From NCBI RefSeq assembly GCF_003596405.1, contig NZ_QYUR01000002.1, forward strand, positions 1,256,501 to 1,320,500: 64,000 nucleotides of DNA, given 5' to 3'. This document shows, piece by piece, positions 44,254 through 61,923 of this stretch. The stretch is from Pseudomonas cavernicola (GTDB lineage: Bacteria; Pseudomonadota; Gammaproteobacteria; Pseudomonadales; Pseudomonadaceae). Below the pieces are notes generated by a model that saw only the letters and a program-made list of their open reading frames with translations, had not been told where the DNA came from and did no database searches. The translations under genes and the position numbers were made by a program. Position 1 is the stretch's first letter. Each line of letters opens with the position of its first letter.

Positions 44254-44308
44254 GATGAGTCAGGCTCAATAGGGTGACTTGTCGGGCTTTCCAGCGCCGA
44301 CGGAGAGC

Positions 44309-44447
44309 CAGGCTGTGCGAAAACTACTGCACTCGATTATCCAGCGTTAAAAACCGGCTAAAAATGTTTATCTGCGACGCGTAAACTGCGCTTTTTCGCC
44401 TGTTTTGCCTTGTCTAACCTTCGCTCGCTACGTTTTCACACAGTCTG
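44309..44447. mobile_element. MITE-like element, AGGCTGTGTGAAAAC ends (copy 2)
   Basis: A 139-bp unit bounded by CAGGCTGTGCGAAAAC and GTTTTCACACAGTCTG; each end has one change from the copy at 9105-9244, and the interiors align over their whole length. It occupies half of the gap between the divergent MATE and LysR genes, so it may affect one of their promoters. Confidence 0.8.
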
Positions 44448-44535
44448 GAATGTCGCTATTCTCGGGAGTCGCCAAGCTTGGCACAAAGGGATAAAAACGA
44501 TGCTAAACATGATTAAAACTCATAGGTAAGTGGCT

Positions 44536-45456: not shown

Positions 45457-45495
45457 ATTCGCGCAGATTCATAACGGCAGCAACGTCGCGCCGCT

Positions 45496-46760
45496 TCAGG
45501 ACAAATTCGTCCGGTATTGCAGGGCCTCGGCCAGATGCGCGCGGCCGATAGCGTCGAGCTGTTCCAGATCGGCCAGGGTGCGGGCGACCTTGAGCACGCG
45601 ATGAGCCGAGCGCAGGGACAGGCCCAGGCGTTCACAAGCGCTTTCCAGCCAAGTTTGGTCGCTGCTGACCAGCGCGCAATGTTGGCGCAGGCCGGGCAAA
45701 TCGAGAAAGGCATTGGCGCAACCCTGGCGCTGTAGCTGCCGCTCACGTGCCTGGGCGACCAGGGCGGCGGCACTCGCGCTGTCGTCGCCGGCCGCGCTCG
45801 GTACATGCAGCGCAGTGGTTTCCCGCGCGACGGTCAGGTGCAGATCTATACGGTCGAGCAGCGGCCCGGAGAGCTTGGCGCGGTAGCGTTGGATCTGCTC
45901 GGAGCTGCAACGGCAACGGCCGCTCGGGTCGCCCAAATACCCGCACGGGCAGGGATTCATCGCCGCGACCAGTTGAAAGCGGGCGGGGAACCGCACCTTG
46001 TCCCGCGCCCGGGCAATGACGATCTGGCCGCTTTCCAGCGGTTCTCTTAAAACTTCCAGTACCTTGCGATCGAACTCCGGCAGCTCATCGAGAAATAACA
46101 CCCCTTGGTGCGCCAGGGTGATTTCTCCCGGCTGCGGCCGACTGCCGCCACCGACGAGAGCCGGCCCTGAGGCGCTGTGGTGCGGGTTACGAAACGGCCG
46201 CTGTGGCCAGGCACTCAACGGCGCATGGCTGACCACCGACTGGATGGCGGCGACCTCCAGGGCTTCCTGCTCGCTCAGTGGTGGTAGCAACCCGGGTAAA
46301 CGGCTGGCCAGCAGGGTTTTACCGGTGCCAGGCGGGCCGCTAAACAACAAGTTGTGCGAGCCTGCGGCGGCCACCAGCAGGGCGCGTTTGGCCGCGACCT
46401 GGCCCTGCACTTCAGCAAGGTCGGGGTAGGGCGCGGTTTGCCGCAGCAGGCCCAGAGCCTGGTAGGGCGCAATCGGGGTTTGGCCGTTGAAGTGCGCCGC
46501 CAGCTCCAGCAGGTGGTCGGCGGCGATCACCAGAAGGCCCGAGGCCAGGCAGGCTTCTTCTGCATTGGCGCGCGGCACCACCAAGGCGCGCCCGGCGGCA
46601 CGGGCGGCGAGCGCGGCGGGCAGCACGCCCTGCACCGACCGCAAGGCGCCGGATAGCGCGAGTTCACCGAGACATTCGACTTCGAGCAGCGCGGCGCCTG
46701 GCAGCTGGCCGCTGGCGGCGAGAATGCCGAGTGCGATGGCCAGATCGAAGCGTCGGCCTA
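45496..46760 (-). pseudogene. comM: comM (yifB) broken by an insertion; 5' part missing
   Basis: This fragment of about 420 codons encodes the C-terminal part of the ComM/YifB Mg-chelatase-like AAA+ helicase, which aids branch migration in natural transformation. Walker A GPPGTGKTLLASRL, LDELPEFDRKVLEVLREPL and MNPCPCGYLGD are intact. The full protein is about 500 residues; here the reading frame enters at GRRFDLAIALG and the next upstream codons are unrelated with a stop (TAA). The N-terminal domain is not in the adjoining sequence. It marks the left edge of the accessory region. Confidence 0.88.
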
Positions 46761-47365: not shown

Positions 47366-47642
47366 CACTCGATTCCAGCTCTTTTTAGTTGTACTTCTGG
47401 CGATATGAAGAAATCAAAATCCACTTAGCCTTTCTACTTCAGCCCATCCGACTGGGTCGGTAACACGGTACAGGACGAGGTTGACCTCAAGCAATACACC
47501 TCCAGCCAGTGAGTCGCGGCCAGTTGGCTAGGATAATTGAGCAACAAACAAGCCTATCCCTTTCTGGAGGTGGATTAGCTGTTTTTGCAGAAGCCGGATG
47601 GCAGCTTCTGGCCCGACTTTCGCCGGTCACGACCGGCAGAGA

Positions 47643-47874
47643 TCGGCCAAAAGCAGACACTGGCCAGACACACAGTACTGTAGTAGCGTTGTGCCCATGC
47701 CTTCGTCGAATACCACGACAAACGACCGGCCTCATTCGTGACGTATAACACCCTTGTACCTCCACCGAACCGCTGTAATGTGCAGCCTCGACAGGGATAG
47801 ACGAGAGAGTGAGGAATGTTATCCACCACGCCCGCAAAAGCGTTATCGCACCATTTGGTGTCTATTTATAGTTA
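47643..47874 (+). repeat. 232-bp direct repeat, copy A (possible attI/leader)
   Basis: This stretch matches 53877-54108 at a constant offset of 6234 with no gaps and about nine substitutions by eye; the last 90 or so bases are identical. It ends on GTTA, the first bases of a GTTATAC core where a gene cassette begins; copy B ends on GTTAAGC with a different cassette. Both therefore abut a cassette array. No integrase motif is found on either strand within it. An attI-like site or promoter leader is inferred. The preceding 110 bp (47530-47642) show nothing recognisable. Confidence 0.7.
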
Positions 47875-47897
47875 TACCCTTAATTACCCGGAGCCAA

Positions 47898-48269
47898 ATG
47901 AAAGCATTTTATCTACTCTTGCCTCTGCTGTTAGCTGGCTGCGTATATTCATACCCAGAGGAAGCACATGATATTGGGGGAAAGCTTATCGATGAGCTGG
48001 TGGTATCGGGCCTCTGTGAAGAAAAAAAGGAATGTGCATACCTAAAGGTCGCAGGAAAGCCAGGCGACGCAATTATTAACATTTACGAAGCAAATAAAAT
48101 CGACAATAATACCCTCTCAAAACTCATTAGTATTTGCTTAAATCAATATGGTCAATACGGAAAGAAAGTAGATATACAAATAAATGCATACAGAGAAACA
48201 CATGAGCAAGCCAGATCTCTTTTTTCTCAGGCTAAGCCCTATATTCAAGTCAGACTAAGAGCAGATTAA
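47898..48269 (+). CDS. Small lipoprotein, cassette gene
   Basis: This 123-residue protein has a lipoprotein signal (MKAFYLLLPLLLAGC, Cys15). The mature part is Lys/Asp/Ile-rich and not recognised. A GGAG at 47890-47893 precedes the ATG. The gene fills a short unit that starts at the GTTATAC core after the 232-bp repeat and ends in an attC-like site at 48300-48375, so it is probably an integron-type gene cassette. Base composition is much lower in GC than the core genes. Confidence 0.7.
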   Translation: MKAFYLLLPLLLAGCVYSYPEEAHDIGGKLIDELVVSGLCEEKKECAYLKVAGKPGDAIINIYEANKIDNNTLSKLISICLNQYGQYGKKVDIQINAYRETHEQARSLFSQAKPYIQVRLRAD

Positions 48270-48299
48270 TGAGAGTTATCATCGAGCGCTCGACAACGA

Positions 48300-48375
48300 G
48301 TATAACTATGCGCTCAAGCCGTTCGCTTCGCTCACTGGGACCGCGTTCCGCGGCCCCTTAGCTTAATCGTTAGCG
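48300..48375 (+). other. attC-like cassette recombination site 1
   Basis: Starts GTATAAC, ends GTTAGCG; the inner part (CAAGCCGTTCGCTTCGCTCACTGG, split; GGGACCGCG-TTCC-GCGGCCCC hairpin; TTAATC) matches the layout of the sites at 54870 and 56339. It closes the lipoprotein cassette and abuts the next one. Confidence 0.75.
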
Positions 48376-48381
48376 GTGTAT

Positions 48382-48855
48382 ATGAATTTCAAAGTATCCG
48401 AAAAATACAAACGCAGTGGCAAACGAAAAACTGTACTTGCTGCATTACTGGTGGCCGGACTCATTGCAGGATCTGCCTGGATGTTTATTGCCAGCGAAAG
48501 CCTTTACCATAAAATAATTTCGGCAATTACCGCCTTCCTACTCATAAAATATTTACCACACGCATACAAAAGCATAAGAACACATGACGCGTCTTACCCA
48601 GTGGTAGAAATAATTGAATCCGAAAACAAAATCGACATATCGCACAAAGGCGCCGTTGTAAGCATGCCGTTATCAGATATAGAAAGCCTAAGAATTCAGA
48701 ATATTAAAGGAAGTGTTAAATCAATATTGCTCACTACCAAATCCTTCAGCAACTTACGTTTTGAAGGGTACGAAAATTTAGCTGAAATGGCTGAGCTACT
48801 TAAAAAGCACACCCCGGCGGGGAAAACAAAAATTGCAACGTGGTATCACCGCTAA
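48382..48855 (+). CDS. Hypothetical membrane protein, cassette gene
   Basis: This 157-residue protein has two membrane segments (about residues 18-40, TVLAALLVAGLIAGSAWMFI, and 44-64) and a cytosolic C-terminal domain with DISHKGAVVSMPLSDIESLR, reminiscent of a PH-like small beta domain. It is preceded by an attC-like site and followed by CGCTAACAAACGG, which may be the left part of a decayed attC. Low GC. Not recognised. A GTG at 48376 is an alternative start. Confidence 0.65.
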   Translation: MNFKVSEKYKRSGKRKTVLAALLVAGLIAGSAWMFIASESLYHKIISAITAFLLIKYLPHAYKSIRTHDASYPVVEIIESENKIDISHKGAVVSMPLSDIESLRIQNIKGSVKSILLTTKSFSNLRFEGYENLAEMAELLKKHTPAGKTKIATWYHR

Positions 48856-48973
48856 CAAACGGTATATGGACTCTCCCCGCAAGTAGTGAGCAAAGCTCTT
48901 CCAACCCTGTCGTCAGTGCGGTTGCATATTTAGTACAACGACATTGCGATATTCTCGTTATCCGTGGGCTCTT

Positions 48974-49432
48974 ATGGAAAAGATCAAAAGCTTAATCGTG
49001 GAAAGACCTTATCTTGCTATCGGGGTTGCAGTTGCCCTTGGTATCGCTCTGTCTTATTTCTTCGGATTTTTTCAACGTGCTCTTCTTCCTATCGCTGAGT
49101 GGGCGCGCCTTAGCTTCATCGTTCCATCTTCAAGCCCAGTTCTTGCGGAAAATATCGTTAACTTCCTCTACCACCTAATTTCCTTTGGCTTGGCCTCGGT
49201 CTGCGTGCTGCTATTTCTGGCGAGGTTCCTTGGGGTTCGCGGCCTTTTCTACCTTGGCGTTGTGCTGACCGCCTCTCAGGTAATCTGCTTACGGTGGGTG
49301 TTTGAGGGGGTTGTATTTGGTTTCGATCCGACGCTCCTGCCAGTGCTGCCACTTATTCCAATCTCGGTTTTAGCTATGTGCACTTCTTTCGCGCTGGCAT
49401 CGTTTCTCGTATTGCGGAAGCCCGCGCTATAA
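48974..49432 (+). CDS. Hypothetical membrane protein with four helices
   Basis: This 152-residue protein has four hydrophobic segments (about residues 12-32, 48-75, 82-105 and 118-145). The start at 48974 (MEKIKSLIVERPYLAIGVAV) is preferred over an upstream in-frame ATG. It resembles small integron-cassette or prophage membrane proteins only in general features; no family recognised. It lies in the 5.1-kb stretch between the two repeat copies. Confidence 0.6.
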   Translation: MEKIKSLIVERPYLAIGVAVALGIALSYFFGFFQRALLPIAEWARLSFIVPSSSPVLAENIVNFLYHLISFGLASVCVLLFLARFLGVRGLFYLGVVLTASQVICLRWVFEGVVFGFDPTLLPVLPLIPISVLAMCTSFALASFLVLRKPAL

Positions 49433-49773
49433 GCAGCAAACTCGAGAGGTGGGAATGCAGCATCAGAATCAACGATCAATGGCGAAGAAATTGAGCATGA
49501 GATCGAGCCGTTAGCGGCTCGTGGTTGACGCGGGGATATACGCCACGATCGCCTATGGGGTAAGGGGTCAAACACTCCCTAAAACGTCCAGAATTTACGT
49601 TTTTACGCAGCCTGGACCCTTTGCAGTCATTCACAAAAGTCGGTGGACAAGAAAAGCGTTGTCCACCCTACGATGTCTGACCCTCCGCGTAGGGTGGCCC
49701 AAGCGCTGTCGTTAGACAGCGCAGTCAGTCTGCAATTTAAATTGGCTCCATGTTTCCAGGGTGATCTTCCAGA
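49433..49773. other. 341-bp gene-free stretch with decayed repeats
   Basis: It holds one half of a MITE end (GTTTTTACGCAGCCTGG, 49598-49614) without its partner, a palindrome GGTGGACAAGAAAAGCGTTGTCCACC split over 49641-49667, and a nearby GTAGGGTGG motif. No open frame of note. Confidence 0.55.
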
Positions 49774-50175
49774 ATGATTGAATACTTTCAGGGCAGCTGC
49801 CTTTGCGGTGCCGTTAAATACGAAATCCGATCTCGCCCCAAAGCGCTGAGCCACTGCCATTGCAGCCACTGTCGTAAAGGCCATGGGGCCGCATTCGCCA
49901 GCTATGGCAGTGTGTTGCGTAATGACCTGCACTTGGTTCAGGGCGCGGATGACATCAAGTCCTACTCTTCCTCCGCATCAGTGCTTCGCCAGTTCTGCGC
50001 CCACTGTGGCTCGTCGCTGTTTTGGTCGAGAAGCCAAGGTGAATACTCCGACTGGATCTCGATAGCGCTCGGCACCCTGGACACTCCATTCACGTCGGAA
50101 AAGCAGAAGCACATCCAGGTGATATCCAAGGCACCATGGTATGAAATTCGGGATCCTTGGCCACAGTCCGGCTGA
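49774..50175 (+). CDS. GFA family (glutathione-dependent formaldehyde-activating-like) protein
   Basis: This 133-residue protein has the GFA zinc pattern: GSCLCGAVKYEIRSRPKALS, then HCHCSHCRKGHGAAFASY and FCAHCGSSLFWSR. These bind two zinc ions. The family includes Gfa/CENP-V enzymes acting on glutathione adducts, but many members have no known substrate. A cassette-borne or mobile origin is plausible since it lies between transposon-like repeats. Confidence 0.85.
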   Translation: MIEYFQGSCLCGAVKYEIRSRPKALSHCHCSHCRKGHGAAFASYGSVLRNDLHLVQGADDIKSYSSSASVLRQFCAHCGSSLFWSRSQGEYSDWISIALGTLDTPFTSEKQKHIQVISKAPWYEIRDPWPQSG

Positions 50176-50255
50176 CCGTGTAGGGTCGAGTTCTGCCGGT
50201 GGCGAGGGGCAGAAAGCGACCAGGAACGGGCATGAAACTTCGAAGCTGAAACGCT

Positions 50256-50816
50256 TCAGCCTATCGGGGGAACTTTCAGATCCGGCCAGGTTGCGAGCCA
50301 GTTTTTTGAGCGAAGGCGGTTCAGATAGACCTGCCGTTTATCTGCCTGGAACTTCGCCGTAGGTCGGACGACAAGGTCAAAGAGATCGTCTAGGCCGAGT
50401 GGTGCCGCGACCTCGACCACACCCTCTACTCCAAGCCGTACAGCAACGGCGGTGGCCGTTTCCGGCCAATGGGTCATGGCATCGACCGCCGAGGAGTAGG
50501 GGGAATCATCATTGCGCAGGTGCATGCGCGCCTGGTTCTTTACGGACCAATCTATCGTTTGGTCCTTGCGCCGCAAGGCGGCTTCGATGTGGGTGTCCAG
50601 GTCCGGAGAGGTCCGCTCGCTGTCGAACCAGATGACATCGACATCCGGAGGCAGCGGTGAGGTGCTTCGCTGATGTAGGTGATCCCATATCGCGCTGCGC
50701 ACGAAGCCCGCTGCAACCCAGCAATCGGGAAGCTCTAGCTCTTGCACCAGACGGAGTATCCGCCAACGTACCGGATCGGCAGCGATGATGGTCTGCACCT
50801 GCGAGAGCTGGATCAT
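50256..50816 (-). CDS. Nucleotidyltransferase family protein (DUF925 type)
   Basis: This 186-residue protein has a nucleotidyltransferase-like core: VAAGFVRSAIWDHLH, PPDVDVIWFDSERT (Asp pair) and SAVDAMTHWPETATAVAVRL. The DUF925/NTP_transf_6 family has no agreed substrate. It is on the opposite strand to its neighbours and next to a MITE-like element. It ends NWLATWPDLKVPPIG. It resembles stand-alone chromosomal copies, so it may have moved into this region. Confidence 0.78.
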   Translation of the reverse strand: MIQLSQVQTIIAADPVRWRILRLVQELELPDCWVAAGFVRSAIWDHLHQRSTSPLPPDVDVIWFDSERTSPDLDTHIEAALRRKDQTIDWSVKNQARMHLRNDDSPYSSAVDAMTHWPETATAVAVRLGVEGVVEVAAPLGLDDLFDLVVRPTAKFQADKRQVYLNRLRSKNWLATWPDLKVPPIG

Positions 50817-50889
50817 GGGCGCTGGCCTAGATGTTAAAAGTCGGAACGAGAGACTAACAATCCAGCTGCGTTAATGTCTGCTTTTGCCC

Positions 50890-51048
50890 CAGGCTGTGTG
50901 AAAACGTATTGAGTGCCAAGCGCTGATCAATAAATGATCAAACTTGGTGCTCTTCCGCGGATTCTATGCAGGCTAGCTCGGATAACTTCTGCAGATTTCG
51001 CGTAGCAACGCGAACCTCAGAATCGATCGGGAGTTTTCACACAGCCTG
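50890..51048. mobile_element. MITE-like element, AGGCTGTGTGAAAAC ends (copy 3)
   Basis: The ends CAGGCTGTGTGAAAAC and GTTTTCACACAGCCTG bound a 159-bp unit whose interior differs from copies 1 and 2. It takes up much of the 393-bp gap between the nucleotidyltransferase gene and the nuclease-like gene; the remaining sequence contains one CGGCCCAAAAGCGG motif (51082-51095) and no genes. Confidence 0.75.
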
Positions 51049-51209
51049 GCCCGTTAGCTGCCGGTCGTGAAGGACCGCTTTCGGCCCAAAAGCGGTCACT
51101 CGCACCCAAGTCTTCCAAATTCCATCTATCCGATTCGTTTCAAGGCGTGTGTTAGCCTGATCAGCTAAAGAACTGGCCCAGTCCAGATCAATCACCTACG
51201 GGGAGCTGT

Positions 51210-52202
51210 TTGATGCATTTCTTGGCACATGTAGCGGCGGAAATTAACAAAAAATCGAAAACATATGAAGTTGGCAACCTACAGAATCTTCGAAAAAAAA
51301 TAAACAACCAATCGAGGCTTTCATCCCGTCAACTATTCGATCAAAGAACTGTATTTGAAGAGTGGGGATGGCATTATGGAGGCAGGAAGGAACTTCAGTT
51401 TAACATCGGTATTGAGGGGGACTTCCTTAGATACGGTGTCGCGTTTTCCCTTGAGTGCAGCCAGTCGCTTCCGAGTATAGAGGTGCTCATCCCCAAAATA
51501 GCGCTATTCAATGAGTACCTGAACGAATACTGCGAGAATTTTTCAGACTTACGAATGTGGCACTACGAAGGCGATGGCCGAAGCACTGAGTACATGCCCT
51601 CATCTATTCCTCAAGAACGAGTAAGAGAAGGTGTTTTTATATTTCTTGGAGGAAAGTTGGAGAAAAGCAAGATTGATTATGACCGGGTCTTGGAAACCCT
51701 TGATCGGCTGCTCCCAATCTATTTGTTTACAGAGGGTGGCCACCCCGATGTAGCTATCAAGGAGAAGCTTTTCGATTTTAGATTTAGCGCTGGCTGCACA
51801 AAAAAGCCATCGACAACCTCAGGACTGTTAATTCAAAGAGAATTGGATATTCGACTGAAACATAACGATTATCAGAGCAATCTCTATAGCGAACTTTCAA
51901 ATGTATACGGAAAGGAAAACGTCGGCACCGAAATATATGCAAACAGGCTGAGCATAGACTTGGTAGTCAAACAAGGAGAGAACTATTGGTTTTATGAAAT
52001 AAAAACGGCATCCACTGCGAGAGCTTGCATTCGACAGGCACTGGGTCAAATACTGGAGTATTCATACTGGCCTGGCCATCAGCGTGCCGCGAAATTAATT
52101 ATCGTAGGCTCAGCCGTGGCAACGGCAGAAGAAATTAGATACATCGAGTATTTGCGCGACACATTTGGTCTACCACTCGAATACCAAGCGATCGATCATT
52201 AA
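51210..52202 (+). CDS. PD-(D/E)XK nuclease-like protein, candidate defence gene
   Basis: This protein of about 330 residues has a C-terminal nuclease-type core: YANRLSIDLVVKQGENYWFY (catalytic Asp) then EIKTASTARACIRQALGQIL (E-x-K plus the helix with RQALGQ), near residues 252-290. The N-terminal half has WGWHYGGRKELQFNIGIE, seen in some standalone restriction-like proteins. The gene is AT-rich, lies alone between mobile repeats and has no methylase beside it. A role in phage or plasmid defence is inferred. A second ATG two codons in (51213) is also possible. Confidence 0.65.
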   Translation: MMHFLAHVAAEINKKSKTYEVGNLQNLRKKINNQSRLSSRQLFDQRTVFEEWGWHYGGRKELQFNIGIEGDFLRYGVAFSLECSQSLPSIEVLIPKIALFNEYLNEYCENFSDLRMWHYEGDGRSTEYMPSSIPQERVREGVFIFLGGKLEKSKIDYDRVLETLDRLLPIYLFTEGGHPDVAIKEKLFDFRFSAGCTKKPSTTSGLLIQRELDIRLKHNDYQSNLYSELSNVYGKENVGTEIYANRLSIDLVVKQGENYWFYEIKTASTARACIRQALGQILEYSYWPGHQRAAKLIIVGSAVATAEEIRYIEYLRDTFGLPLEYQAIDH

Positions 52203-52315
52203 TCGTCAAAATCAATGAAAATGCTCTAATTTTTCAATCGAGAATGAACGCTTTGGATCGATAGTTGCCCTTCATGAACGGCAACTATCGGCCAGAAGCA
52301 GCCGGTGACGAAGTG

Positions 52316-52462
52316 ATGTACAAATTAGCAGCTATGCTTAGCTCTAATATCGAAACTAATACAACAGATGGGCAAACATGGCTACCCGCCGGTTAACCGG
52401 GTGAGGTCTATAAAGAAATTTTCGAGCTAGCCGAGAGCTTCGAAAAATACCAAGCAGCCTGA
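52316..52462 (+). pseudogene. Short ORF remnant with an internal stop
   Basis: The frame from 52316 reads MYKLAAMLSSNIETNTTDGQ then TWLPAG, TAA (52394-52396), and continues in the same frame with PGEVYKEIFELAESFEKYQ to a TGA at 52460. The two halves look like one small protein broken by a nonsense codon. It lies in the 331-bp gap between the nuclease-like gene and the next gene; the rest of that gap shows only one CGGCCAGAAGCAG motif (52289-52301). Weakly supported. Confidence 0.35.
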
Positions 52463-52533
52463 AGCCCGTGGTGGCGTTCGCTTTTAATGGCAACGCCACC
52501 GCTGATGACTACAATCAAGAGAGGCAACCTTTT

Positions 52534-53043
52534 ATGAATACAGAACTTGTCATAAATCTCTGGGCCATATTCGACGGTTCGACAGGTTTCGTCTATGGGT
52601 TGGCCGGAAAGGCGTATAATGTACCTGGGACTGAGCGACAAAAGCTTGATCTTCTAAAAGCCTTATCTGCTACAGATCATGTCACCGCTAAGCGATACAA
52701 AGTACCTGAGCGGTTTTCTGTCAGTTTTACAGACGGAAGTTCAGAGTCAGGTATTACTTATCTAAATTCGGTTTACACACCCTATGCACAGCTTTTTGAA
52801 GATGTCTTTAAGAGCATCGAGCAAGAGCTACCTCCCATCTTTAATTTATCCAGTGAGGACTGCGGGCTAATCCATCAAGCTATCCCCCAAGACCCTCTCT
52901 GCGTAACGACTGTCCTCTACGAGGATGAAGTGGGGAACATTCGCCCAATTATTACTGATGAAGACAGGGAGTGGGTTAGATTGCAGGAGGAACTCGCGCA
53001 CGGCTCTGACAACGCATGTAGCGAAGAATCGGAAAGCCTATAG
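52534..53043 (+). CDS. Hypothetical protein
   Basis: This 169-residue protein has no recognised domain. The start at 52534 (MNTELVINLWAIFDGSTGFV) is chosen because of a weak GAGGC upstream and a plausible N-terminus. The C-terminal region is acidic (EDEVGNIRPIITDEDREWVR). It is single and lies between a defence-like gene and a MITE-like element. Confidence 0.55.
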   Translation: MNTELVINLWAIFDGSTGFVYGLAGKAYNVPGTERQKLDLLKALSATDHVTAKRYKVPERFSVSFTDGSSESGITYLNSVYTPYAQLFEDVFKSIEQELPPIFNLSSEDCGLIHQAIPQDPLCVTTVLYEDEVGNIRPIITDEDREWVRLQEELAHGSDNACSEESESL

Positions 53044-53103
53044 CGCAGGCGATATGGCTGCTTCAGGCCGTAGCTGCCTGTCACGATGGGCTGCTTACGG
53101 CCC

Positions 53104-53260
53104 AGGCTGTGTAAAAACGCAGGCACTGTTTTGAAGTCTGCGCTTCTACGTGAAATCTGCCAGCGTATGGTTAATCAGCAGATCTGAAATTTTCATAGAA
53201 GCGCGATTTTCGTTCTGATTCAGGCTGCCAAACTTGCTCGAAAACGTTTTTACACAGCCT
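53104..53260. mobile_element. MITE-like element, AGGCTGTGTAAAAACG ends (copy 4)
   Basis: Perfect 16-bp ends AGGCTGTGTAAAAACG and CGTTTTTACACAGCCT bound a 157-bp unit; the interior has further inverted parts (AATCAGCAGATC). It occupies the 381-bp gap between two hypothetical genes; the rest shows a CGGCCAGAAGCGG motif (53263-53275) and nothing coding. Confidence 0.75.
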
Positions 53261-53424
53261 CGGCCAGAAGCGGACAGCGGACAGTGGACAGAGACACGGT
53301 AAAATGACTAGTTTCCGCTGCGCTCCATTCGCGCAGCTTATGGGTGGCGGATGCTGACACATAGTGCAAAGTGCCTAGGAAGGACTACTCTTGTGCTCTC
53401 ATCGACTGCAACCGGAGCGTCGCT

Positions 53425-53727
53425 ATGAATATCACTAAGTTCGGGCCGCCAGAGTTTCATGGAATCGACCTTGACTGCGATGTCTACTTCACCCTCAACA
53501 AGCCGGAAGTGGATACACTGAGCAACCCTGTCACTCAGGCTGCGATCGTGGCAGAGCTGGCTCCCGGCGCGCCGCCATTTGGAGCCATCGCGGCGGCACT
53601 GATTCTGAACTACATCAATCTGATGAAGGAGCGTGCTGGTCCCAACGGTGTTTCGGTAAAGTCCACGATCCGACAAGGCGCCGGCGCGCTTATGCAGATG
53701 AAGGAGTTCATCGCCGAGCCGATCTGA
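53425..53727 (+). CDS. Hypothetical protein
   Basis: This 100-residue protein begins MNITKFGPPEFHGIDLDCDV with GGAG (53413-53416) 8 bp upstream. The middle is rich in Ala/Gly/Pro (AELAPGAPPFGAIAAALILN) with a hydrophobic stretch near residues 47-68, and the end is IRQGAGALMQMKEFIAEPI. No family recognised. Confidence 0.55.
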   Translation: MNITKFGPPEFHGIDLDCDVYFTLNKPEVDTLSNPVTQAAIVAELAPGAPPFGAIAAALILNYINLMKERAGPNGVSVKSTIRQGAGALMQMKEFIAEPI

Positions 53728-53876
53728 GGGGCTAGTTAGTGGCAATACGCGTTCAGGATGGCCTTCACCAGGACGGAACGGACGATGTCGTCTTTGGTGA
53801 ACTCGCCCCCCGGGCCTGGTCCGAGTGGCTCAAAGCCAAAAAGGGACACCCATTAGCCGGTCGCGGCAGGCCGGAG

Positions 53877-54108
53877 TCGGCCAAAAGCAGACACTGGCCA
53901 GACATACAGCGCTGTAGTAGCGTTGTGCCCACATCTTCGTCGAATACCACGACAAACGACCGGCCTCATGCGTGACGTATAACACCCGTGTACCTCCACC
54001 GAACCGCTGTAATGTGCAGCCTAGACAGGGATAGACGAGAGAGTGAGGAATGTTATCCACCACGCCCGCAAAAGCGTTATCGCACCATTTGGTGTCTATT
54101 TATAGTTA
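53877..54108 (+). repeat. 232-bp direct repeat, copy B (possible attI/leader)
   Basis: This matches 47643-47874 without gaps. It ends on GTTA of GTTAAGC (54105-54111), the core at which the NYN cassette starts. Sequence between 53728 and 53876 holds no gene; the 406-bp gap before the NYN start is otherwise this repeat. Repetition with different cassettes after each copy suggests the repeat is a fixed leader rather than part of a cassette. Confidence 0.7.
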
Positions 54109-54134
54109 AGCACCACCACAGAACAAGGACGCCC

Positions 54135-54875
54135 ATGAAAGACCTGAACGAGCACAAGAAAATTGCAGTGCTGATTGACGCCGATAACGCACAGCACTCG
54201 AAGATAAAGGCAATAATCAGCGAAATATCTGTTCATGGGCACATTGTAATAAAAAGAGCATACGGGGATTGGTCAAAAGACAATTTGAAAGGATGGAAAA
54301 CATCTTTAAACGAGCTGGCCATACAACCAATTCAGCAATTTGCATACACCACGGGCAAGAACTCTACAGACGCCTCAATGATTATTGACGCAATGGATCT
54401 GCTGTACTCGAACAAGTTTGATGCCTTTGTTCTAGTATCAAGTGATAGCGATTTTACAAAATTAGCATCCAGGCTTAGAGAGGCGGAGATAGTCGTTTAT
54501 GGTGTCGGGGAAAAGAAGACTCCCATTTCTTTTCGAAACGCTTGTGACGACTTCATTTATACGGAGAATATCGGCGTAGAAATAGCTGAAGAAGCACAAG
54601 AACAGCAAAGAACTAAGGACTACAGCAACGCTGAAGACCTTGTACCTGCTCTAACTAAAGCCTGGGAACGTTATCAAGACGATGAAGGGTGGGCAAACGT
54701 TGCACCTGCCGGAAGTTTTGTTAAACGCGCCATGCCAGACTTTGATCCTCGATCATATAACGCCAGCAAATTTCCAGACATAATTTCACGCCTTACCAGT
54801 CATTTCGAAATGAAGAAATTCAAGGGTAAAGGCACAGTTAATATCGTTGCATACAAACCTCTTACAGACGCTTAA
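54135..54875 (+). CDS. NYN domain plus LOTUS/OST-HTH domain protein, cassette gene
   Basis: This 246-residue protein has an N-terminal NYN (PIN-like) ribonuclease domain: KIAVLIDADNAQHSKIKAI with the first Asp pair, KNSTDASMIIDAMDLL with the second, and FVLVSSDSDFTKLASRLRE with the third. The C-terminal LOTUS-like HTH covers about 170-246 (LVPALTKAWERYQDDEGWAN, RSYNASKFPDIISRL). The combination is that of LabA/MARF1-type RNA-binding nucleases. AAGGA (54125-54129) precedes the ATG. It begins right after repeat copy B and ends at an attC-like site. An RNA-targeting defence or regulatory role is inferred. Confidence 0.8.
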   Translation: MKDLNEHKKIAVLIDADNAQHSKIKAIISEISVHGHIVIKRAYGDWSKDNLKGWKTSLNELAIQPIQQFAYTTGKNSTDASMIIDAMDLLYSNKFDAFVLVSSDSDFTKLASRLREAEIVVYGVGEKKTPISFRNACDDFIYTENIGVEIAEEAQEQQRTKDYSNAEDLVPALTKAWERYQDDEGWANVAPAGSFVKRAMPDFDPRSYNASKFPDIISRLTSHFEMKKFKGKGTVNIVAYKPLTDA

Positions 54876-54945
54876 CAACTGGTTCAAACCGTTCGCTTCG
54901 CTCACTGGGACGGGCTAAAGCCCGCCCCTTAACCAAGCGTTAGAT
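54870..54945 (+). other. attC-like cassette recombination site 2
   Basis: GCTTAAC at the left (shared with the NYN stop), CTGGTTCAAACCGTTCGCTT, then CGCTCACTGGGACGGGCTAA-AGCCCGCCCC hairpin, and AACCAAGCGTTAGAT at the right. It is nearly identical in layout to the sites at 48300 and 56339. Confidence 0.85.
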
Positions 54946-54962
54946 TTCCTGGAGCCCCACTC

Positions 54963-55919
54963 ATGGCCGACATACCGAGATCCGAACTGCGCGAAGTACT
55001 GCGAGCACTTTCGAACGACGTCGAGCTGTACTTTGCCACCGCTGCTATTGCGCTTCAGCAAGAGGCTGAGTCTCCCTTCCTCTCCAGTTACGAATCGGCC
55101 AATCATTACTGGGATCTACTGCCCAAGGAGTTGCAGTCAACTGCAAACACCCTCATCGACCGACTCCTTCCACCTTGCGCGGCACTCGCTGATCTGGCGC
55201 GTTCCTCCCCCCTCACCGGATCGGAAGACCTACAAGACGTCAAAATTGCTACGAAGGCAATGCGGGCCGTGCTAAGGCTTCGTCGGTACAGCTATCGTGA
55301 ACCGGATGCCATACACGATGAAGGCACCGTTCTCGGGTTCCGCCCAGCCGAGCAGTTCGAGAACCAAGGCCTTTCGCCCAAGGCGGCTGAAAGCGAGTTC
55401 TTCGAGCACATGTCAACACTCGGAGCAGTCCTTAAGCTTGTTGAAGCCGCCGTGTCGGCCAGTCCAGAAGCCTCTTCGAGCGCCGCAAGCGAGCCGGCAA
55501 AGTACCGGACAGGCACCGCCTTCATAATGATGTGGATGGATCCGCAGCATCCCGAACTCACCGATGTCGCCGATGCGGTTAGGTCGGTCTTTCGATCGTT
55601 TGGAGTACGAGCAGTACGCGCGGACGATATCGAGCACGAGGGCCTCATCACCGAGCGTGTATTGAACGAAATTCGAACGTCGGAGTTCCTCTTCGCCGAC
55701 CTGACAGGCATGCGACCGAACGTCTACTACGAAATCGGCTACGCACACGCACTCGGGAAGCGAGTAATTCTCTTCCGCAAGTCCGGCACAGGTTTGCACT
55801 TCGATCTGGCCGGGTATAACTGCCCTGAATATGAGAACCTGCGCGATCTTCGAGAGAAGCTGAGCAAACGGCTAGTCAACGTAACCAATCGGAATCCATC
55901 CGAGAGCACGGAAATCTAA
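54963..55919 (+). CDS. TIR/nucleoside deoxyribosyltransferase-like protein, cassette gene
   Basis: This 318-residue protein has an unknown N-terminal helical part (about 1-175) and a C-terminal Rossmann-type domain: GTAFIMMWMDPQHPELTDVA, then LITERVLNEIRTSEFLFADL, TGMRPNVYYEIGYAHALGKR and VILFRKSGT. This combination is typical of the TIR-like/nucleoside 2-deoxyribosyltransferase-like proteins found in defence and toxin loci; NYYEIGYAHALGK contains the conserved Glu. NADase or nucleotide-cleaving activity is inferred. It is a full cassette between attC-like sites 2 and 3. Confidence 0.72.
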   Translation: MADIPRSELREVLRALSNDVELYFATAAIALQQEAESPFLSSYESANHYWDLLPKELQSTANTLIDRLLPPCAALADLARSSPLTGSEDLQDVKIATKAMRAVLRLRRYSYREPDAIHDEGTVLGFRPAEQFENQGLSPKAAESEFFEHMSTLGAVLKLVEAAVSASPEASSSAASEPAKYRTGTAFIMMWMDPQHPELTDVADAVRSVFRSFGVRAVRADDIEHEGLITERVLNEIRTSEFLFADLTGMRPNVYYEIGYAHALGKRVILFRKSGTGLHFDLAGYNCPEYENLRDLREKLSKRLVNVTNRNPSESTEI

Positions 55920-55966
55920 CATGTCGTTCAACAGGACGTCGCCGCCTGTTAACTCAAACGTTAGGT
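55914..55966 (+). other. attC-like cassette recombination site 3 (short type)
   Basis: ATCTAAC at the left, ATGTCGTTCAACAGGACGTC in the middle, CTCAAACGTTAGGT at the right, about 53 bp. It belongs to a different attC subtype from sites 1, 2 and 4. It closes the TIR-like cassette. Confidence 0.75.
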
Positions 55967-55978
55967 CGCAGAGGGAAC

Positions 55979-56344
55979 ATGCACCAGATCAAGTCCAATT
56001 TATACCCTTGCGCTCATTGCTCTGGCGTGGGTACCTGCAAAAATGGCATCAATGAGTCTTCTTGCGCTGTTTGTGTAAAAGAATATGAACTAAAAGGCAA
56101 AGAATTCGCAGGGCTTCCATGTGGTGTTTGCGGTGGTATCGGGCAAGCAGAACCTCGGACTGAGCGCATCAATAAACGAATGCCTGCCATATTAGGCTTT
56201 ATGGTTGTTTTCCTTTTAATGTTTGGCGTATTCCTCAGTGCGGCTTTGAAAAGTCCATACTTCAGCGAGGTGTTAGCCTTCTCTGGCACACTCATTGGTA
56301 CAGTTTTGGGTTTCTATTATTCAGACCGCAGCAAGGCAACCTAA
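55979..56344 (+). CDS. Small zinc-ribbon membrane protein, cassette gene
   Basis: This 121-residue protein has a Cys-rich N-terminal part (YPCAHCSGVGTCKNG, SSCAVCV, GLPCGVCGGIGQA) like the DnaJ zinc-binding repeats, then two membrane helices (about residues 68-90 and 97-113). It is a complete cassette between attC sites 3 and 4, with AGGGAAC before the ATG. Function unknown. Confidence 0.72.
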   Translation: MHQIKSNLYPCAHCSGVGTCKNGINESSCAVCVKEYELKGKEFAGLPCGVCGGIGQAEPRTERINKRMPAILGFMVVFLLMFGVFLSAALKSPYFSEVLAFSGTLIGTVLGFYYSDRSKAT

Positions 56345-56414
56345 CTAGTGGTTCAAATCGTTCGCTACGCTCACTGGGACTGGCTAAAGCCAGCCCCTTA
56401 ACCAAACGTTATAC
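56339..56414 (+). other. attC-like cassette recombination site 4
   Basis: ACCTAAC at the left, AGTGGTTCAAATCGTTCGCT, GGGACTGGCTAA-AGCCAGCCCC hairpin, AACCAAACGTTATAC at the right. It closes the zinc-ribbon cassette and precedes the broken ORF at 56435. Confidence 0.85.
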
Positions 56415-60218: not shown

Positions 60219-61496
60219 CTATTCCGCCTTAACCGGCCATAATTGGTCCAACCGGGTTGTATAACTCTGGCTGATCATCTCCCTCCGCATCCCCCAGTCC
60301 GGCTCTTCCGGCACACCTCCCGGCCGTAGCGTCCCCCTACCCCATCTCGCATTGATAGCATCCATCACACCCATCACCCGCTCCGACGCCTCCGGCTGCG
60401 TCACGGCAAACAGGTCGTCGGTGAACTCGCCGCGCTGGCGCAGATCAAGCAGCAGCAACTCGGCCTTACTGAACGCAAAACCCTCCCGGTAGATCAGCTC
60501 CAGCCCATCGGCGGCCGCCTTGCTTATCAGGCGGGTATCGTCAGTTGGGTATGGCAGCTCGACCACCACACCCTTGGCGAATTTCGGTTCGTCTGGATTG
60601 AACATGCCGGTACGGATGCTGACCCGCACCCGCTTGCACATCGATTGCTGCGCGCGGAGCTTCTCGCAGGCGCGCGCTGCATAGGTCGCCACTGCTTCCC
60701 GAATTGGCGGCAGCTCACGCAACCGCTTGCCGAACATCCGGCTACAACAGATCTCCTGCTTAGGCGGCGTTGCCTCTTCCAGTTCAAGACAAGGCGTGCC
60801 GCGTAGTTCGCGAGCGGTCTTCTCCACCACCACGCTGAACTTCTGCCGCAGGGTCCAGGCGTCGGCCTGGGCGAGATCCAATGCGGTGCGGATGTTCATC
60901 TCGGCCAGGTGCTCGGTCATACGCCGGCCAATGCCCCAGACCTCGCTGACATCGGTGACCTTCAGCACTTTGTCGCGCCGATCCGGATCGCGCAGATCCA
61001 CCACCCCTCCGGTCTGTCGCTGCCAGCGCTTGGCAGAATGGTTCGCGAGCTTGGCCAAGGTCTTGGTTGTGGCGATGCCAACGCCGACCGGGATGCCCGT
61101 CCAGCGCAACACCCGCGCGCGCATTGCACGACCCAACGCCTCCATATCACCAGGCATGCCCGTCAGGTCGGCGAACGCTTCATCGATGCTGTACACCTCG
61201 ATAGCAGGCACCATACCTTCGAGCGTTGTCATCACGCGCTGGCTCATGTCGCCATAGAGGGCGTAGTTGCTGGAGAACGCCAGAATGCCGTGGCGCCGAA
61301 GTTTGTCGCGGATCTGGAAATATGGCTCGCCCATCTTGATGCCCAGCAGCTTGGCCTCGGCCGAACGGGCTATCACGCAGCCGTCGTTGTTCGACAGCAC
61401 CACGATGGGGGTATGCGCCAGGTCTGGCCGGAACACTCGTTCGCAGCTCGCGTAGAACGAATTGCAGTCGACGAGCGCCAGTACCTGTTCAGCCAT
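60219..61496 (-). CDS. umuC: UmuC-type translesion DNA polymerase subunit
   Basis: This 425-residue Y-family polymerase starts MAEQVLALVDCNSFYASCER with the active-site Asp, and has YSIDEAFADL (catalytic Asp-Glu pair, about residues 100-110) and GVGIATTKTLAKLANHSAK. It is the catalytic subunit of Pol V (UmuD'2C). It overlaps umuD by 8 bp, so the pair is cotranslated from the LexA-controlled promoter. Such umuDC (rulAB) operons are frequent on Pseudomonas islands and plasmids. Confidence 0.95.
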   Translation of the reverse strand: MAEQVLALVDCNSFYASCERVFRPDLAHTPIVVLSNNDGCVIARSAEAKLLGIKMGEPYFQIRDKLRRHGILAFSSNYALYGDMSQRVMTTLEGMVPAIEVYSIDEAFADLTGMPGDMEALGRAMRARVLRWTGIPVGVGIATTKTLAKLANHSAKRWQRQTGGVVDLRDPDRRDKVLKVTDVSEVWGIGRRMTEHLAEMNIRTALDLAQADAWTLRQKFSVVVEKTARELRGTPCLELEEATPPKQEICCSRMFGKRLRELPPIREAVATYAARACEKLRAQQSMCKRVRVSIRTGMFNPDEPKFAKGVVVELPYPTDDTRLISKAAADGLELIYREGFAFSKAELLLLDLRQRGEFTDDLFAVTQPEASERVMGVMDAINARWGRGTLRPGGVPEEPDWGMRREMISQSYTTRLDQLWPVKAE

Positions 61497-61923
61497 GGTG
61501 GCGATGGCGCCGGATGCTGTCGGTCACCACTCCCCAGATACGCAGCTCATCCCCTTCCAGGATGTAGCGCGGCGCATACGCCGGATTTTCGGCATGCAGG
61601 ATGATCTGCCGGCCATGCCGGTGGAAACGCTTCACTAGCGCCTCGTTATTTAGCGCAGCGATGACGATGTCACCTGAGACCACTTCCAGCGAACGATCGA
61701 CCACCAGCCAGTCGCGGTCAAAAATACCGACACCGATCATGCTGTCGCCGACCGCCTGGGCGATGTACATGTGTGGCGCGCGCAGGTTGAGCAATTCATC
61801 CAGGGAGATTTCGGCCTCGATGTGGTCAGCCGCTGGCGAGGGAAACCCAGCGGAGACCAATGAGGAGTACAGCGGCAGAGCCTGCCCGCCTAGCGCGAGC
61901 GGCCCGAGGATGGTACAGGACAT
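61489..61923 (-). CDS. umuD: UmuD, self-cleaving Pol V accessory protein
   Basis: This 144-residue S24 peptidase-like protein has the self-cleavage site Ala-Gly (SAGFPSPA, about residues 24-32), the nucleophile Ser in GDSMIGVGI and the Lys base in EALVKRFHR. RecA* triggers cleavage to UmuD', which joins UmuC. The start is the ATG ending at 61923, 18 bp from a LexA box. Confidence 0.95.
   Translation of the reverse strand: MSCTILGPLALGGQALPLYSSLVSAGFPSPAADHIEAEISLDELLNLRAPHMYIAQAVGDSMIGVGIFDRDWLVVDRSLEVVSGDIVIAALNNEALVKRFHRHGRQIILHAENPAYAPRYILEGDELRIWGVVTDSIRRHRHHG

Follow-up and report, generated by a model that had tools for sequence, protein, structure and literature searches.

According to the portions of the cited reports that bear on each point, cassette arrays lying apart from an integron integrase gene (intI) are defined in IntegronFinder 2.0 by their attC sites alone, as clusters of attC sites lacking integrases (CALINs) (PMC9024848), and have been proposed to originate as degraded integrons, off-target insertions or rearrangement products (PMC9024848, PMC8618304). 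CALINs of Xanthomonas occur at conserved loci and are mobilisable in trans, and the passages of that report concerned with them mention no attI at the arrays (PMC12444791). The attI site is described as poorly characterised outside class 1 (PMC9024848); attI1 is laid out with two direct repeats (DR1 and DR2) and an L box, and the unit attI1-aadB-attI1 is excised by IntI1 (PMC12901181). The integron integrases of Pseudomonas have been catalogued (PMC3108266). Here we describe a stretch of 64,000 nucleotides from Pseudomonas cavernicola (assembly GCF_003596405.1, contig NZ_QYUR01000002.1, positions 1,256,501 to 1,320,500; hereafter the window), in which two copies of a repeat, neither accompanied by intI, stand at the head of two different cassette arrays. 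As judged by homology, the 3′ part of the repeat is the attI region of the Pseudomonas chromosomal integron, and the copies most likely represent attI sites that were copied without intI and act as stand-alone docks loaded by IntI in trans. This integron is presumably tied to the published P. stutzeri Q/BAM integron system.

The repeat copies and their conserved ends are placed as follows.
47619..47874, plus strand: copy 1 of the 256-bp repeat, an orphan attI region with its upstream leader, the 3′ part being homologous to attI beside long intI in relatives
53853..54108, plus strand: copy 2 of the same 256-bp repeat, an orphan attI region with no intI detected
47813..47874, plus strand: conserved attI core region of copy 1, from an alignment of 25 copies, ending in the crossover core GTTA (47871-47874)
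54047..54108, plus strand: conserved attI core region of copy 2, with the same sequence as in copy 1

The preliminary description of the window had reported a gap-free match with about nine substitutions, preceding two separate cassette series; over the 232 bp concerned (47643-47874 against 53877-54108) the match is indeed ungapped with exactly nine mismatches (BLAST E-value of copy 1 against copy 2, 1e-108), and the repeat reaches further 5′ to a total of 256 bp, with 17 mismatches and 93.4% identity, beyond which the ungapped identity drops to 23-40%. All 17 mismatches lie outside the last 85 bp, which are identical in the two copies; under an even spread of the 17 mismatches, a clean run of the last 81 bp, a stretch picked after viewing the alignment, has a probability of about 0.0012. 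Both copies end in ...TCTATTTATAGTTA, and different open reading frames (ORFs) and attC sites come next, so that the two cassette series are distinct as had been claimed. A tblastn search (1e-3) next to the two copies detected no fragment of intI, which bears out the reported lack of an integrase gene. The leader opens with about 50 bp of a separate intergenic repeat that is present in other genomes of the genus. The 256-bp repeat opens with a 40-bp intergenic motif (GCCGGTCGTGACAGGCAGCAATCGGCCAAAAGCAG), which stands at 47622-47661, 51060-51100, 52267-52306, 53055-53091 and 53856-53895, short matches to it turning up elsewhere in the genus.

The assignment of the repeat as attI is made because it is homologous to, and collinear with, the attI beside long intI in relatives: the window copies and intI-linked attI can be aligned over the final 61-132 bp at 83-92%. 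In a survey of regions from 58 of the 77 genomes matching the site profile, comprising 91 copies, 17 copies adjoin a long divergent intI (at least 200 matched codons) that starts 133-136 bp from the core, at least those of G001, G069 and G240 being broken; 15 copies retain only a shorter stub from the N-terminal (5′) part of the gene, and 59 have no detectable intI. The integron integrase family was found over its cut-off in 28 of the 56 leader-bearing genomes searched. An attC lies within 3 kb downstream in 51 of the 74 copies for which at least 3 kb of downstream sequence was available, the proportions being 10/10 beside a long intI, 11/13 beside a stub and 30/51 where no intI is detected. 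The repeat is thus neither found mostly away from cassettes nor carried inside cassettes with an attC of their own. The suggestion of a new type of cassette-loading site is rejected, since the same site adjoins intI in relatives.

When copies were grouped by conserved upstream DNA (144 records, namely the 91 genome copies and 53 named contigs, which overlap), two integrase-less platforms emerged: X follows a gene for a DinG/YoaA-like helicase and Y one for a PAS chemoreceptor, the annotation coming from a single member in each case. Platform X comprises 10 distinct members and platform Y 14 (7+7), all of them without intI; there are nine different first cassettes at X and 14 at Y, counts that rest on platform clustering and comparison of junction identity. 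One member of Y, L212, was counted on 417 bp of upstream sequence. The count leaves out G315:C10, whose leader is in two parts, and L194, with 378 bp upstream; both align with the Y flank but stayed outside the clustering. At X and Y, pairwise identity averages 84.5-92.8% over the flanks, 80-92% immediately before attI and 90.9-92.7% within attI, and 22.8-26% (raw identity) from +3 to +203 past the core; at X, conserved DNA resumes 0.75-4.5 kb downstream in seven of the eight members compared. Between platforms, too, homology stops in most pairs at the end of the conserved attI core region (GTTA). For 568 of the 719 pairs that have no long intI, it ends at −1 to +4 of the core (overlapping records, the pairs not being independent), 47 pairs running past +40, duplicate records among them, and the rest ending nearby; the corresponding figure for pairs of intI-linked copies is 378 of 438. 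At Y, the arrays are moreover nested, cassette 1 of G001 being cassette 2 of G449 and the next G001 stretch being the first of L220, as expected if cassettes were added at, or lost from, the core one by one. Because identity breaks at the core and the first cassettes differ at orthologous sites, cassettes appear to have entered integrase-less attI sites at X and Y.

The two window copies belong to a larger set. Used as a DNA query against the same genome, a 341-bp stretch returned 18 matches, among them a split copy and short 5′ pieces, and a profile of the last 75 bp of the repeat (R1, built from 25 sequences) gave 13 matches, 12 of them strong, on four contigs. Eight of the 12 strong copies are followed by attC arrays: the two in the window, C2:945k (two attC), C2:1439k (three), C3:169k (one), C3:290k (seven), C6:599k (seven) and C8:564k (six), the last having an insert of about 1.3 kb that divides its leader. 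The other four (C2:2112k, C8:550k, C8:301k and C8:116k) have no attC array, and C8:116k has no core. C2:2112k and C8:550k (L065 around 9452, and L066) form a duplicated region, 99% identical over the 3 kb compared upstream, in which a bare 60-bp attI with the core GTTG precedes a gene that by eye is GST-like, no attC being detected there. The idea of a two-platform integron remnant in the preliminary description hence falls short, the platforms being more numerous here and orphan platforms of related species staying in fixed places while their cassettes change. It seems that copying within the genome started from a platform that had already been truncated, because six copies (the two in the window, C3:290k, C2:945k, C3:169k and C8:564k) share an intI-less upstream part; the two window copies would accordingly be a duplication of an already intI-less platform. 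The left flank of C2:945k found no match in the 15 kb of G148 compared in search of an empty site.

Across the genus, 77 of 398 genomes, this one counted, match the site profile (E 0.001), and among 144 relatives from 49 genera the matches were confined to one genus. An exact 20-base pattern occurred in 53 stretches of a genome collection; their titles name Pseudomonas or Stutzerimonas in every case but two, both contigs of one metagenome-assembled genome titled Gammaproteobacteria. A plasmid- or phage-borne element was rejected, an 85-bp query having no match in 72,556 plasmid and 50,697 phage records; so was an RNA element, with no Rfam match at gathering scores. The copies termed class A were also rejected as transposon ends, their 5′ motif belonging to the separate intergenic repeat.

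The site has an internal order that can be read from an 11-bp motif (consensus GTTATNCACCA), which is inverted at about −136 from the core (a single 4-bp bin contains 112 of the 144 records) and direct near −57 and −32, with a weaker inverted copy adjoining the core; in intI-linked copies the inverted motif overlaps the start of intI. Window copy 1 contains the following elements.
47739..47749, minus strand: inverted copy of the 11-bp motif, 2 mismatches (motif scan)
47818..47828, plus strand: direct repeat 1 (GTTATCCACCA), DR1-like (motif scan)
47842..47853, plus strand: direct repeat 2 (GTTATCGCACCA), DR2-like, one base longer than the motif (sequence and alignment)
47856..47866, minus strand: inverted motif adjoining the core (TGGTGTCTATT), L-box-like (motif scan, 3 mismatches)

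Direct repeat 2 of copy 1 was missed by the ungapped motif scan. The motif layout of the orphan attI resembles the DR1/DR2 and L box of attI1 (relevant passages of PMC12901181), and the repeated 11-bp motif is presumably bound by IntI. A related IntI lineage, encoded at four loci (L291, L293, L294 and L295) and 68-73% identical to the G148 integrase, keeps an attI of like layout with altered motifs. By eye, in the stretches of these four loci, the first direct repeat is TTATGCGACA or TTATACGACA; three of four have a second CGACA before the core, three of four have TGTCG adjoining it, and all four have ATGTCGC where intI starts, the first lineage having CACCA or TGGTG. Integrases of the CGACA type occur in genomes that also hold orphan sites of the CACCA type (G063, G321, G379 and G028). 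We infer that the motif may be a binding code that changes along with the integrase, and the change from CACCA to CGACA offers a handle on the specificity between IntI and attI.

In the mechanism that we favour, the attI region of the Pseudomonas chromosomal integron would have been copied to many places without intI, each copy serving as a stand-alone docking platform at whose GTTA core a cassette was recombined; later cassettes would be added in front of earlier ones, and the integrase would act from another locus. Action in trans is the best explanation, because cassettes have changed at orthologous platforms without intI. We infer the loader indirectly, because most X and Y genomes have no matching intact intI. 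Cassette expression may be driven from the leader. Going one step further, the arrays may together amount to a distributed integron, in which several integrase-less attI docks at conserved positions stay intact and are refilled by integrases that are encoded at other loci or arrive transiently, a proposal for which we put the chances at even.

Several observations weigh against loading in trans. The genome of P. cavernicola itself has no intI over the family cut-off. Of the 13 X and Y genomes checked, G424 is alone in pairing this type of attI with an intact neighbouring intI; in G001 the intI of matching type is broken, G063 and G379 have CGACA-lineage genes (interrupted by a stop codon in G063), an integrase type about 51% identical is present in G008, G232 and G325, in G064 the gene is truncated, and the five others have no intI over the cut-off. 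By the attC profile used, no attC is found at 21 of the 51 copies that lack intI and have 3 kb or more of downstream sequence. RRY follows the core at only 12 of 38 orphan junctions with attC and at 8 of 14 intI-linked junctions, compared with 332 of 2363 background GTTA sites. No match to the sigma-70 promoter consensus was found in either of the two leaders scanned, those of window copy 1 and of one platform X. Exchange of whole arrays between strains by homologous recombination would also be possible at X and Y.

Two other accounts must be set against this one. If each copy were the dead remnant of a full integron that lost intI after loading in cis, no loading in trans would be needed, and the stubs at 15 of the 91 copies, the lack of intI in the genome itself, and C6:599k, where about the first 56 codons of intI are left beside the leader and the near relative G148 has an open intI at the orthologous place, speak for such decay. 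We nevertheless regard pure decay as unlikely overall and as disfavoured for X and Y, where the intI-less structure is common to all 10 and 14 members, so that its loss most simply predates the split of each platform, yet the first cassettes differ from the core on; the identity of the last 85 bp of the window copies, while the remainder has 17 changes, also speaks against it. Alternatively, arrays loaded long ago or in other strains could have been passed as blocks between strains by homologous recombination after transformation, which the conserved DNA on both sides of X would permit and which would suit the lack of a matching intI in most of the 13 genomes. This account we find doubtful, for the differing cassettes at one intI-less attI would still need an origin, and the break at the core in most pairs, together with the nested arrays, points to insertion at the core.

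That the repeat is instead an unrelated dispersed element, such as a transposon end or a promoter repeat, that happens to precede cassettes is suggested by its dispersal and by the separate intergenic repeat forming its first 50 bp or so; it is very improbable, given the collinearity of the 3′ part with intI-linked attI, the attC cassettes that follow most copies, and the related IntI lineage whose attI has a like layout with changed motifs. Loading by IntI in trans at attI sites copied without intI thus remains the reading that we prefer.

The cassettes in the window are as follows.
47875..48372, plus strand: cassette 1 of array 1, a 123-residue ORF (47898-48269) and attC, by attC match and a homologue over 498 bp in G321
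48303..48372, plus strand: attC of array 1 cassette 1 (nhmmer E 3.9e-15; repeat family D2)
48373..48863, plus strand: probable cassette 2 of array 1, a 157-residue ORF from 48382, with a homologue in an orphan attI array of G436
54109..54942, plus strand: cassette 1 of array 2, an NYN-domain/LOTUS protein of 246 residues (54135-54875; Pfam PF01936, PF12872) and attC (attC match)
54873..54942, plus strand: attC of array 2 cassette 1 (nhmmer E 1.5e-21), folding as DNA better than 200 of 200 shuffles
54943..56411, plus strand: cassette 2 of array 2, two ORFs (318 and 121 residues) and attC (Pfam, attC match)
56342..56411, plus strand: attC of array 2 cassette 2 (nhmmer E 9.2e-21)

The nhmmer profile was seeded with the three window attC sites, and their own E-values are therefore self-seeded. 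Folded as single strands, the three sites give partial attC-like structures (z −1.09, −3.55 and −2.53); because the folds are only partly attC-like, the assignment as attC relies on their family resemblance to arrays beside intI. The attC of the probable cassette 2 of array 1 was not detected by the profile, and its homologue in G436 (76% over 545 bp) lies inside the orphan array. No Pfam match was obtained for the 123- and 121-residue ORFs, and the 318-residue ORF has a nucleoside deoxyribosyltransferase-like match below the Pfam cut-off. Cassettes are shared between arrays of different kinds: an orphan array in G321 contains a stretch that matches the first cassette of the window at 94% across the full 498 bp, and the first cassette of the orphan array C3:290k matches the first cassette of an intI-linked array in G297 (89%) and the third cassette of G014 (83%).

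Between the arrays, 49704-50889 contains genes for a GFA-type enzyme and a nucleotidyltransferase and matches a region of G148 at 87%; the two arrays are therefore separated by DNA that consists only in part of cassettes. Stretches resembling miniature inverted-repeat transposable elements, with inverted ends (GGCTGTGTGAAAACG..., by eye), lie at 50890-51050 and 53089-53265, the latter having several matching places in relatives (76-82%). To the left, comM (yifB; 45490-46758) is truncated at its 5′ end, DNA homology ending at 46758 in all six relatives searched and the listed ORF being without the first 110 positions of the family model; a dispersed repeat of about 140 bp at 44308-44448 is found several times in relatives (77-89%). 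Beyond the arrays on the right, umuC and an S24-peptidase (umuD-like) gene occupy 60222-61923.

Many integrase-less arrays thus have a proper attI head, in fixed positions and with different cassettes across species, a docking site that tools relying on attC only overlook. Among the papers listed by literature searches of a library without most subscription journals, and as judged by titles and abstract openings, none described intI-less attI platforms in Pseudomonas. Whether attI can work without intI in cis, and which integrase loads it, becomes directly testable; if the proposal of a distributed integron is true, one enzyme would serve many arrays.

Measured by the components of an integron platform, the window has attI, as recognised by homology, and attC cassettes starting at the core, whereas no intI was detected beside either copy; for an outward cassette promoter (Pc), the consensus scan of two leaders gave no match. 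Compared with the sedentary chromosomal integron of Pseudomonas, composed of intI, attI and cassettes, the window copies share the attI sequence and the attC family of arrays beside long intI, but are without intI and recur as several platforms per genome. As in the unusual attI-gene-attI cassettes, the 6.2 kb between the window copies are flanked by two direct attI sites, a likeness of geometry only; this segment holds cassettes together with genes matching a chromosomal region of a relative. The CALINs are a further counterpart, their attC arrays likewise having no neighbouring intI. By the CALIN rule of at least two attC and no integrase nearby, array 2, with its two attC, qualifies, whereas array 1 would be missed because it has one clear attC. 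In clear distinction from arrays defined by attC alone, both arrays of the window keep a conserved attI at their head.

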